Assembly: GCF_000499285.1 (NCBI RefSeq)
Contig: NZ_AWUN01000004.1
Span: 62,001 to 126,000 of the forward strand
Reading direction: 5' to 3'
DNA: 64,000 bases
Source of the DNA: Bifidobacterium sp. 7101
GTDB taxonomy: Bacteria > Actinomycetota > Actinomycetes > Actinomycetales > Bifidobacteriaceae
In this document: in pieces, positions 44,223 through 47,605 of the stretch
Numbering within the stretch: position 1 is the first letter of the stretch
How the letters are laid out: each line of letters starts with the position of its first letter
Translations under genes and position numbers: made by a program
Notes under the pieces: model-generated
What the model was told of the DNA's origin: nothing
What the model saw: only the letters and a program-made list of their open reading frames with translations
Databases searched by the model: none

Positions 44223-44267
44223 GATACCGCTGATTGGCATTCAATCGATGTAGGCGCGTTAGGCTGG

Positions 44268-46421
44268 TCAGTCCCGGACCTGGGCGAACCCACCCACTGC
44301 CCAGGCCAGTCGATCCCGAAGCTCGGGATCGACCGCGAATAGCCCCAATCCGTGCACCCCTCGTTTGAGCAGCACATTGAACTCGTGCCGAAGATTATCC
44401 ACAGGATTCATCTCCGGCTCCGACCGCCGATTGGTCGCCAACGTGTTGCAACTGAGCTTTGGTTTGAATTCGATTTTTCCATTCCTGTAGGTAACTGAGG
44501 GGCCGATGATGACCCCCGCATAGTTGAGGTCAAAACCTTGGATGGTAAAGATGGAGCCCACCTCATCGATAGTAAAAGGCAATTCAGCCCAGGCAATCCG
44601 ATGATTTGCAGCAGAGTTTCCCTGTGCCTCATATAGCTCGTAATTCCAGGGCATGGCGAATTCACCTTCACCATCCTGCCCCTCCTCGGCCCACACCCAT
44701 CGGCCTGAATCCTCTTGGCGCAACACAACCTGCCAGTGTTTTGAGGGATCCTGTGGATCAGGATGATTCTTGCTGCTATAAGGCCAGTCATAGGTGGCTA
44801 GGAGTCGGCAGAGGCCCAAGGAACCCTCGCCCCTTTGCTCCTGGTCCTTTTGGCGAATAAACTTTTCCAAAACCTTAGGCGAGTCGAAAACCCTGATCTC
44901 GTAAGGATGCTCCCAAGGATCCGGATGCAGTGGGCCAATGATGCCATCCTTGGCTGTCATCCGATCCAGCCAGGCGCAGGTTGCAGGGTCAGCCTGAATG
45001 CGCATCTGTTGATCCAAACGAACATGACTGACCTGGAAAGTATCCTCGCGTGCATGCTGACCGTCCCGTGACCTTTCGCGGATAATCATGGGTCGTGAGA
45101 AGGTCTTTTCGGATTCAGAACCCGTCAATCCCAGAAGCCGACTTTCCTGGGCATCCACGAACTGGGATCCACGCAAGACCTGTTCCGGGTCGAAGACCAC
45201 GATGGCTACTTTTGCCCGCCGCAGAATGTCGTAGAGCTGGTTGCTTCCGGAGTAGCTCTGAGACCCTTGCGTCAGCAGCAGGTGCGCCTCGTCAATCAGC
45301 ACCACATCCGCCTGAGCGTCCACGCTATTCATGGGGTCCGCCGCCCTGCCCGTGGACCGACCATTTCGATTCGTGTGCTTGCTGAACCGGTTGATGAACT
45401 GAACAGCGCCAACCACGCACTGTCCGCGTTGCTTTTGCAATCCCAGCTTCAGAGCCATCTGGTTGTAGACGTTAGCCTGCTCGGCCTGGTTGACAATGAT
45501 GTAGGAACGCTGCCTGGCTTTTGCCGAACGGTCATCGTCCCTGCCGTTCAGGTTCCCATAGATGCCATATCTGGCACATATCTGGTAGAAGAGATGGCTG
45601 AGCAAAACGGTCTTGCCAGTCCCTGACATACCCTGAACGACAATAACCTGTGTATGGGCTTTATCGTTGATTCGAACCGGACCTGTCGATTCCGTCATCG
45701 AATGGAAACCCTCATCACGGTTTTGAATAATGACCGACTCCAGCACATGCAGAACAGCCTCTTCAGCCCGCCGTTGTTCATCGGTGAGTTTGCGGAAGGG
45801 CGAGGCCTTGAACAGGGCGGAGTCCAGGATCGCCTTCTCTTCCGGGAACAGATCGGGCTCCATCTCGTGCAGGGTCTGCCAGGCCTTGGAAAAGATGCTG
45901 TCGAACTCATCACTGGTGTAGTACATGTCCTGAGCGTTGGTTCTACGGTTCATAACCAGCTTGACCGTGTCGACGCTCTGCATATACCCCATCAACCGAT
46001 TTTCCATATCCAGGGTCAAGGACTTATTGAAGTGGCGATCACCGATAATGTACTGGCAGACCCTGTCCTGATGATTGCGCATGAATCGCACCAAGCGTTC
46101 CCAATCTGTCCGGGTCCGCGGATCCAGCTCAATGTGCTGCCTGGTTCGAGAACGGATGTCGTTGGTTTCCCCGACGTAAACCACATAAGGGGGCCCACCA
46201 CCATGCTTTTTGCTGCTGTCCCTTTCGTCTGCAGAGACAATATATACAGTGGGATAGCGTAGGAACAGCTCCTCAAGCAACCTCCCCTCCAACTTACTGC
46301 CCTTACTGCCAACAGCTTTCGCCTGCTTGTACTCGGTAATAGCCTTGGAAAAATCCTCATCTTTGAAATCGCCATAAGGCAGCGTCATCACCACAGGCTG
46401 CGGCGCGCTTGATGAATCCAT
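44268..46421 (-). CDS. GIY-YIG nuclease-DUF2075 (Schlafen-like) ATPase fusion
   Basis: About 717 residues. Residues about 45-150 form a GIY-YIG-type domain: YPTVYIVSAD, then PPYVVYVGETNDIRSRTRQH (YVGETND replaces the canonical second half). The rest is a P-loop NTPase of the DUF2075 group, with Walker A in QGMSGTGKTVLL (about 275), Walker B DE in DVVLIDEAHLLL and late helicase-like elements VGSIFTIQGFDLNYAGVIIG and NVLLKRGVHGLGLF. Predicted action is ATP-driven nucleic acid translocation with cleavage. Start ATG 46421 is preferred; ATG 46388 is possible. Divergent from a MazG-like gene 67 bp away. This pairing looks like a defence or nucleotide-stress unit, which is inference. Confidence 0.8.
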   Translation of the reverse strand: MDSSSAPQPVVMTLPYGDFKDEDFSKAITEYKQAKAVGSKGSKLEGRLLEELFLRYPTVYIVSADERDSSKKHGGGPPYVVYVGETNDIRSRTRQHIELDPRTRTDWERLVRFMRNHQDRVCQYIIGDRHFNKSLTLDMENRLMGYMQSVDTVKLVMNRRTNAQDMYYTSDEFDSIFSKAWQTLHEMEPDLFPEEKAILDSALFKASPFRKLTDEQRRAEEAVLHVLESVIIQNRDEGFHSMTESTGPVRINDKAHTQVIVVQGMSGTGKTVLLSHLFYQICARYGIYGNLNGRDDDRSAKARQRSYIIVNQAEQANVYNQMALKLGLQKQRGQCVVGAVQFINRFSKHTNRNGRSTGRAADPMNSVDAQADVVLIDEAHLLLTQGSQSYSGSNQLYDILRRAKVAIVVFDPEQVLRGSQFVDAQESRLLGLTGSESEKTFSRPMIIRERSRDGQHAREDTFQVSHVRLDQQMRIQADPATCAWLDRMTAKDGIIGPLHPDPWEHPYEIRVFDSPKVLEKFIRQKDQEQRGEGSLGLCRLLATYDWPYSSKNHPDPQDPSKHWQVVLRQEDSGRWVWAEEGQDGEGEFAMPWNYELYEAQGNSAANHRIAWAELPFTIDEVGSIFTIQGFDLNYAGVIIGPSVTYRNGKIEFKPKLSCNTLATNRRSEPEMNPVDNLRHEFNVLLKRGVHGLGLFAVDPELRDRLAWAVGGFAQVRD

Positions 46422-46488
46422 GGTTTTCACTATGCCACGAACCCGCACCAATCTGAAGGCAGGAGGGCCGGCTGATAGGCTCGGGATC

Positions 46489-46821
46489 ATGATCAGCAAG
46501 GAAACAGAAACAGCGGTGATGAATTTTGTGCACGAGCGCGACTGGGATCAATTCCACACGCCAGCCAACCTGGCCAAATCAATCTGCATCGAAGCTGCAG
46601 AGCTCTTGGAATGCTATCAGTGGGGGGATGATCCCAGGGACGGAGATGAAGACCACGCGGCCGACGAACTGGCAGACGTGCTCACCTATTGCATCCAGCT
46701 GGCGGACCGGCTGAATCTGGACATGGATCAAATTATCATGGATAAACTGCAAAGGACGACTGAAAGGTATCCGGTGGCCACTTCACGTGGCTCCAGTCGA
46801 AAATACCGGCCGCTGCACTAA
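46489..46821 (+). CDS. MazG-like nucleotide pyrophosphohydrolase
   Basis: 110 residues, all-alpha NTP pyrophosphatase of the MazG/RS21-C6 group. The metal-binding E-x2-E-x2-E lies in IEAAELLECYQW, and the second acidic motif is in ADELADVLTYC (E-x2-D). The N-terminal FVHERDWDQFHTPANLAKS is typical of these short proteins. Such enzymes hydrolyse non-canonical or canonical (d)NTPs. An AGGAGGG lies 22 bp upstream, too far for ATG 46489, so the start is a little uncertain. It is head-to-head with the DUF2075 ATPase and converges with the HAD gene. Confidence 0.85.
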   Translation: MISKETETAVMNFVHERDWDQFHTPANLAKSICIEAAELLECYQWGDDPRDGDEDHAADELADVLTYCIQLADRLNLDMDQIIMDKLQRTTERYPVATSRGSSRKYRPLH

Positions 46822-46831
46822 CTACATCAAT

Positions 46832-47605
46832 TCAACAAGTCCGCACATCTAGCGATCCTGATTGTCCGAGTCGCTTGGCAATCAGCGCGGTCAGATCATC
46901 CACGGTGACTCCCCTATAGTTATTTATGGAAGTGAACTGAGGACCTGATGAGGTGTCGACCGGGTTGGTGCCGGTATAGGCCACAGTGGTTGCTCCTGAG
47001 GCTACAGCTGAGGTGATACCGGTCAAGGTATCCTCGAAAGCCAAACAGGAGGCCATCAAATCATGGCTGTTGATGCCCACCAGACTGGCCGCATGCAGAT
47101 AGGGTGCAGGATCGGGCTTCTGCGCCAGCCCATCATCACCGCAAACGTAGTCGGCAAAAGCCCCCTCGGGCGCCTTAGCGACCACAGCCTGAGCCATGCG
47201 GCGTGGCGAAGTAGTGACCAGGATCGAGGGGATTCCAGCCTCAACCAGGTCTGTCAGAATGGCACGAACCCCTTCAATCCATGGCATGTGAAGCTCCTCC
47301 ATGGCGATCACTCCATCAATCAATAAATCTGGAATCTGATCCTCAGGAAGATCAAGACCACGCTCTCGCATCACCCTTGCCACCTTGGTCAGGGGTTTGC
47401 CGGAAACCTGCCAGCCCATGTCGGCATTCCAGTCTCCTCCATGCTCACGCACCAGATCAACCTCCGCCTGATGCCAATAAGGCTCTGAATCAATCAGGGT
47501 TCCGTCCATGTCCCAAAAGACCGCAAGCGGTCGGCGACCCACAGCAGACTGGGCTTTGTCATTCGACCCGGCACGACTTTCTTCCTCTTGATGCTCCGTA
47601 TTCAT
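46832..47605 (-). CDS. HAD-superfamily hydrolase (beta-phosphoglucomutase-like)
   Basis: 257 residues. Motif I is FWDMDGTLIDSEPYW with the nucleophile and acid Asp pair, motif II is SILVTTSPRR, the motif III lysine is in GDDGLAQKPDPAPYL and motif IV is CLAFEDTLTGITSAVA. The alpha-helical cap lies between about 45 and 115. Family members dephosphorylate sugar phosphates or isomerise them. The first about 28 residues are a charged, probably disordered extension. Convergent with the MazG-like gene (10 bp gap); the XRE regulator lies 49 bp upstream in the same direction. Confidence 0.88.
   Translation of the reverse strand: MNTEHQEEESRAGSNDKAQSAVGRRPLAVFWDMDGTLIDSEPYWHQAEVDLVREHGGDWNADMGWQVSGKPLTKVARVMRERGLDLPEDQIPDLLIDGVIAMEELHMPWIEGVRAILTDLVEAGIPSILVTTSPRRMAQAVVAKAPEGAFADYVCGDDGLAQKPDPAPYLHAASLVGINSHDLMASCLAFEDTLTGITSAVASGATTVAYTGTNPVDTSSGPQFTSINNYRGVTVDDLTALIAKRLGQSGSLDVRTC

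Follow-up and report, generated by a model that had tools for sequence, protein, structure and literature searches.

Within the window, the 64,000-nucleotide stretch of DNA analyzed here, which is part of the genome of a honey-bee-gut bifidobacterium of the Bifidobacterium asteroides group, two divergent genes encode a GIY-YIG-helicase fusion and a MazG-like pyrophosphatase. The question that this locus raises is whether the two proteins act together against phage and, if so, what each would contribute. An initial annotation had put them forward as a candidate two-gene module, and its coordinates, motifs, 67-bp gap, and divergent orientation proved right for both genes (Table 1). The GC content is 54% for the pair and 59% for the window. 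Because the whole 2.1-Mb host genome contains only one such MazG-like gene, and because the pair recurs in unrelated genomes, the adjacency of the two genes is more than chance.

Table 1. Positions of the gene pair and its features in the window
Feature	Position	Strand	Basis
GIY-YIG nuclease-SLFN-g3 (DUF2075/PF09848) helicase fusion, 717 aa	44268..46421	-	PF09848 E 4.8e-73; homologue alignment
GIY-YIG nuclease domain, approximately residues 56-160 of 717	45942..46256	-	Conserved columns; PF01541 in 9/15 homologues; secondary structure of a low-confidence model
SLFN-g3 helicase domain, with Walker A, DEAH, QMRI, TIQGFDLNYAG, and RGVHGL motifs	44328..45650	-	Pfam; invariant columns
Divergent intergenic region, 67 bp	46422..46488	.	
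MazG-like/DCTPP1-like all-alpha NTP pyrophosphatase, 110 aa	46489..46821	+	PF12643 E 8e-17; DCTPP1/RS21-C6 PDB match
Segment swapped in sister species G024 for Dam-family methylase and type II restriction enzyme	44264..46893	.	blastn breakpoints (approximate), gene identities

A probable nuclease-helicase and a dCTP-pyrophosphatase-1-type enzyme

The longest open reading frame for the helicase spans 44268-46499 on the minus strand, and it is to this long form that 743-aa numbering applies. Its first 26 residues are not common to the homologues in an alignment with 14 of them. We therefore placed the start at the ATG at 46421, which is conserved while the residues upstream are not. The helicase part is unambiguous in its family, with a PF09848 score of 246.9 bits against a Pfam cut-off of 24. 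Walker A (GMSGTGKT) lies at 45609-45632 and DEAH at 45282-45293, and both GxxGxGKT and DEAH are kept in the 14 aligned homologues, which are 25-47% identical. The Pfam scan found neither DUF3427 nor any other known reader domain in the helicase, nor a PLD nuclease domain in the protein, and a Schlafen RNase core was not among the matches at E<=0.1.

For the N-terminal region, the PF01541 (GIY-YIG) score of the window protein itself is 16.4 bits, under the Pfam cut-off of 22.6; the homologues that match this family do so at E<=0.01, the best at E 4e-6. Residues Y108, R118, H122, and E166 in 743-aa numbering are invariant, and Y86 is nearly so, in homologues down to 25% identity (Y60, Y82, R92, H96, and E140 in order of position in 717-aa numbering). 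By alignment, the catalytic Tyr, Tyr, Arg, and His and the Glu metal ligand of GIY-YIG are thus all in place, Y108 being the tyrosine of the YIG strand, and the R-H spacing of 4 and the R-E spacing of 48 are presumably those of I-TevI. An AlphaFold model made from a shallow alignment has a secondary structure compatible with GIY-YIG, at low confidence (mean pLDDT, 54).

Stronger evidence comes from a sister group of helicases, which has instead an N-terminal extension of 250-300 residues without GIY-YIG. This extension carries D84-X17-E102-L-K104, followed by Q-W, in 30/30 sequences, which on inspection reads as a putative PD-(D/E)XK nuclease motif. A scan of the extension in six N-extended helicases named no Pfam family, and remote homology of the extension to GIY-YIG was considered and rejected (hhalign probability, 0.1). 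Two nuclease types that bear no relation to each other thus share this helicase and this neighbor, which marks the N terminus as a slot for a nuclease. The PD-(D/E)XK-motif form is a large family (L109, L115, L116, L118, L123, L124, and L303-L316), in which a DCTPP1-like MazG gene is mostly found downstream at about 15-30 bp. From its motifs, we consider the window fusion to be a probable DNA-cutting nuclease-helicase, and DNA is likely to be the target of its nuclease.

The closest solved structures to the MazG-like protein are RS21-C6 and dCTP pyrophosphatase 1 (PDB match, E 1.5e-19). The ExxE...ExxD metal site is almost without exception in the partner enzymes compared, with E35 and E38 in 60/61 and E60 and D63 in 61/61. 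Three further positions, W19 (60/61), H23 (58/61), and W45 (57/61), align to W47, H51, and W73 of RS21-C6, which we take to have a role in the cytosine pocket. DCTPP1 prefers dCTP and 5-methyl-dCTP (PMC4491611). The initial annotation had also suggested that the pyrophosphatase might remove a signal nucleotide, and we see no support for this reading in an enzyme of this type. Because it is of the dCTP-pyrophosphatase-1 type and conserves the tryptophans at RS21-C6 W47 and W73, dCTP or a modified dCTP is the better guess, and judging from these residues the substrate is probably dCTP or a cytosine analogue.

Recurrence and exchange of the pair

Among 46 well-flanked GIY-YIG-helicase genes, 32 have a MazG-like gene no more than 600 bp away, with a usual distance of 0-90 bp. 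The corresponding count is 21 of 33 for the N-extended helicases, compared with none of seven short helicases and none of 20 control DUF3427 helicases; these counts take in related species. The adjacency first noted in Bifidobacterium thus extends beyond this lineage, into unrelated genomes. The MazG-like gene can be upstream or downstream of the helicase gene, in either relative orientation, and because all four arrangements occur, the neighborhood must have been assembled or rearranged several times. About 30% of the GIY-YIG-helicases have no adjoining MazG-like gene, so this partner is not indispensable.

The coupling was also apparent in the Coriobacteriia, sampled as 248 genomes with one representative per species. 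The helicase was present in 44 of them, across 31 genera, and the MazG-like gene in 39; 37 genomes had both, two had MazG only, and seven had the helicase only. The MazG-like gene was therefore found in 37/44 helicase-positive genomes versus 2/204 helicase-negative ones (Fisher p 1.6e-34, a value that overstates independence, given the relatedness among these genomes). Of the 39 MazG-like genes, 34 had a helicase within about 1 kb. At L319, L320, L334, L336, and L342 (G652, G559, G563, G658, and G545), DCTPP1-like MazG genes of Coriobacteriia have no helicase adjacent on the contig. Distances among helicases correlate with those among their partners, with a Mantel r of 0.37 in the GIY-YIG group and 0.87 in the other, N-extended group, so the two genes for the most part move as a unit, and a degree of re-pairing has taken place in the GIY-YIG group.

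Within the genus, a full-length GIY-YIG-helicase is found in about 12 of 27 genomes, while the neighboring HAD-hydrolase gene is found in all 27. In G024 the whole segment (Table 1) is swapped out between flanks that are 92 and 90% identical by blastn, and the genes in its place encode a Dam-family adenine methylase and a type II restriction enzyme. The latter is a DUF6996-DUF6997-DUF7226 protein that matches a PADLOC model for type II restriction enzymes; the two genes lie at L199:2892-5091. G026 has an insertion of a GIY-YIG-helicase gene, with no MazG beside it, at a point where about 190 bp stand in the close relative G022, between flanks that are 92 and 98% identical (blastn). Two sister species, G003 and G019, have lost the helicase; the MazG left on its own is intact in G003 and carries a frameshift in G019. 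In G025 it is the helicase that carries a frameshift, and MazG is intact. The place of the helicase in G003 (L197:2466-6648) and G019 (L198) is taken by a block coding for an iron-containing dehydrogenase, a PRA-isomerase-like protein, and a pair of PfkB kinases, of which one is pseudouridine-kinase-like. The count of about 12 in 27, the restriction-modification replacement in G024, and the empty site in G022 show that the pair is not core here; the locus is horizontally exchanged, and it looks like an exchange point for defense genes.

Relatives of the pair are found on Lactobacillaceae plasmids with several kinds of neighbors. These are type III CRISPR genes; a SauUSI-like enzyme together with NUDIX and with a pair made up of an AAA protein and a DUF2357 nuclease; a restriction endonuclease with a DUF262 protein; and type I restriction-modification genes. 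In Actinomycetota the neighbors include Cas9, Cas3 with GmrSD, HSDR_N, a SauUSI-like enzyme with NUDIX, and a C5 methylase with a GHKL ATPase, as read from neighbor tables in which gene calls in high-GC DNA are rough. A comparison of 100 neighbors with PADLOC, made without a matched control, recovered type IV enzymes, Cas10, Cas1, Cas6, and methylases. The pair is also carried by a phage. On a temperate-phage contig (IMGVR_UViG_2806310834_000001; L208:7863-9915), overlapping helicase and MazG-like genes are flanked by lysin-like and integrase-like genes, and between lysin and integrase genes is a usual place for phage-borne accessory defense genes.

On the L. plantarum plasmid NZ_CP028230.1 (L039:2246-12666), a seven-gene run has the order NUDIX, SauUSI-like helicase, MazG, GIY-YIG-helicase, a protein of unknown function, an AAA protein (PDC-M26A-like), and DUF2357-PD-(D/E)XK. 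Two pairs of a pyrophosphatase and a nuclease-helicase therefore adjoin in this run, and the same two pairs occur in an actinobacterium (L136). At L101:4557-9585 (G308), genes for a C5 cytosine methylase, a GHKL ATPase with a Hypoth_Ymh domain, MazG, and the GIY-YIG-helicase stand in a row, and this cluster looks like a four-gene restriction-modification operon. We also considered NUDIX as a general stand-in for a missing MazG, and rejected it, since occurrences of the motif were limited to the vicinity of L039, L040, and L136 and to one unrelated gene of L092. NUDIX pairing was confined to the full-DUF3427 subfamily (L262-L264) and clusters L039 and L136.

A proposed joint attack and its alternatives

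Because the genes travel together, are found on plasmids and phage, and often lie beside anti-phage systems, the pair has the looks of an undescribed two-part defense system. The original proposal of a two-gene defense module is well supported in that the pair is not lineage-restricted, is not core, and keeps the company of defense genes, and we think it highly likely that the pair defends against phage. The sequences themselves show the domains with their catalytic motifs intact, a nuclease slot whose content can be swapped, a partnership that recurs, and a patchy location in defense islands, plasmids, and phage.

We put at about even the chance that this is a horizontally exchanged, restriction-like two-part anti-phage module made up of a helicase-driven nuclease and a pyrophosphatase acting on the dCTP pool. 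In such a module, the SLFN-g3 helicase motor would load the GIY-YIG nuclease onto foreign or replicating phage DNA, which the nuclease would then cut. The DCTPP1-type pyrophosphatase would meanwhile turn dCTP or modified dCTP into the monophosphate, so that either dCTP falls or the modified dCTP used by some phages is removed. Phage DNA synthesis, or the synthesis of protected modified phage DNA, would then fail during nuclease action. That phage DNA and its precursors come under joint attack by the two enzymes, and that neither enzyme serves to regulate the other or to protect against it, is plausible, with a chance that we put just short of even. Against the module speak the GIY-YIG-helicases with no MazG-like neighbor, the MazG-like gene that persists by itself in G003, and the frameshifted helicase of G025 with its intact MazG.

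A division of labor closer to type IV restriction would have the nuclease-helicase cut DNA with modified cytosine (5mC or 5hmC) and the pyrophosphatase keep modified dCTP out of host DNA, a form of self-protection in the role that the methylase has in ordinary restriction-modification. It is consistent with this that the pair occurs in operon-like clusters with a SauUSI-like PLD-helicase-DUF3427 enzyme (L039, L044, and L136), SauUSI being 5mC/5hmC dependent (PMC3874153). In two of these three clusters (L039 and L136), the SauUSI-like enzyme has its own adjoining NUDIX pyrophosphatase, which has relatives called CTP pyrophosphohydrolase, and 5-methyl-dCTP is hydrolyzed by both the NUDIX enzyme Orf135 of E. 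coli and DCTPP1 (PMC10742078). However, the window helicase is without DUF3427 or another known reader domain in Pfam, the window's own genome encodes a C5-cytosine methylase, and at L101 one pair lies directly behind a C5 methylase gene. C5 DNA methylases are in fact more common with the GIY-YIG-helicase, occurring in 21/27 Coriobacteriia that have it versus 115/221 others (p 0.013, overstated in the same way by relatedness). This excess may merely reflect defense-rich genomes. As the co-occurrence is positive and not negative, and a C5 methylase is present in the window's genome, 5mC-dependent restriction was rejected as a general rule, and we consider the type IV reading as a whole to be unlikely.

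Alternatively, the pair could be an abortive or toxin-antitoxin-like unit, in which the nuclease-helicase harms its host and is held back or set off by the pyrophosphatase via the nucleotide pool. The short intergenic gaps and the coupled presence of the two genes would fit such a unit, as would the case of G019, where the helicase is gone and the solo MazG is decaying through a frameshift. Intact helicases without a MazG-like gene are nevertheless numerous, the lone helicase in G026 among them, which disallows the role of an obligate antidote, and the occurrence of all four gene orders is a further argument against a reading that we likewise judge to be improbable.

The same two activities might serve genome maintenance, with the helicase-nuclease acting on replication or repair intermediates and the pyrophosphatase as a house-cleaning enzyme for damaged dCTP. 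GIY-YIG nucleases are generally known to act in repair as well, and house-cleaning is an established role of DCTPP1 and MazG (PMC4491611); in the bee-gut clade, moreover, the pair occupies one and the same site in most species. The patchy distribution, allelic replacement by restriction-modification genes, carriage by plasmids and phage, and defense neighbors all speak against a maintenance role, to which we assign a low probability. Finally, defense islands are generally known to collect unrelated small genes, and the MazG-like gene could be a mere hitch-hiker in them, a reading already disfavored by the 0-90-bp gap kept in four arrangements, the count of 0/20 at another defense helicase, and the 2/204 among helicase-less genomes, so that its probability is minimal.

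Relation to known systems

In line with the first impression that this was not a named system, no PADLOC 2023 model matched over most of its length: the best match was to Nhi, at 22 bits over 27 residues around the P-loop, and the GIY-YIG region gave only partial PDC-S14 matches. In the open-access journal literature searched, no description of a DUF2075-GIY-YIG/MazG pair was found. It is possible, and we suggest it tentatively, that the pair represents a new two-part class of immunity, in which a modular nuclease-helicase (GIY-YIG or PD-(D/E)XK slot) is joined to a dCTP-pyrophosphatase-like pool enzyme for joint attack or for self-protection against modified cytosine.

If the proposed module is real, the joining of a DNA-cutting motor with an editor of the dCTP pool has happened repeatedly in bacteria, which would link restriction with dNTP-pool immunity. 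This would explain many orphan gene pairs annotated as "DUF2075" and "nucleotide pyrophosphohydrolase" and would give bacterial relatives of human DCTPP1 a testable role. With the nuclease swapped and the partner kept, the hypothesis lends itself readily to dissection, and the parallel pair of NUDIX and a SauUSI-like enzyme in the same clusters would make the combination of pyrophosphatase and nuclease-helicase a general principle.

Among known systems, the SauUSI-type type IV enzyme (PLD-SF2 helicase-DUF3427; with NUDIX, the PADLOC candidate PDC-S07) is also a nuclease-helicase fusion of defense islands. Its full-DUF3427 subfamily likewise has an NTP pyrophosphatase (NUDIX) next door, and SauUSI-like enzymes cluster with the pair itself in L039, L044, and L136. 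The nuclease and helicase families of the two proteins are unrelated, however, and the window protein is without DUF3427. A modified-cytosine target has been shown for SauUSI (PMC3874153), whereas such a target would be hypothetical for the window pair. Bacterial and animal Schlafens share their group-3-type helicase domain (PF09848) with the window protein, in which, unlike in Schlafens, no Schlafen RNase core was found by Pfam and the N-terminal nuclease is of another fold (GIY-YIG, or PD-(D/E)XK in the sister group). By its domain content, then, the window protein is neither a Schlafen proper nor a SauUSI-type enzyme.

The MazG-like enzyme belongs to the same all-alpha NTP-PPase family as mammalian DCTPP1/RS21-C6, with the ExxE, ExxD, and W/H/W positions in common, but differs in being bacterial, 110 aa long, and tied to a nuclease-helicase. 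Anti-phage systems that deplete dNTPs (dCTP deaminases and dGTPases) offer another parallel, since the window pair would likewise act on the dNTP pool. They use other enzyme folds, and in them the pool enzyme is itself the effector, whereas here it would have a nuclease partner. Taken together, the pair would belong to the known kind of nuclease-helicase defense, and its partnership with a pool enzyme would be new in principle.
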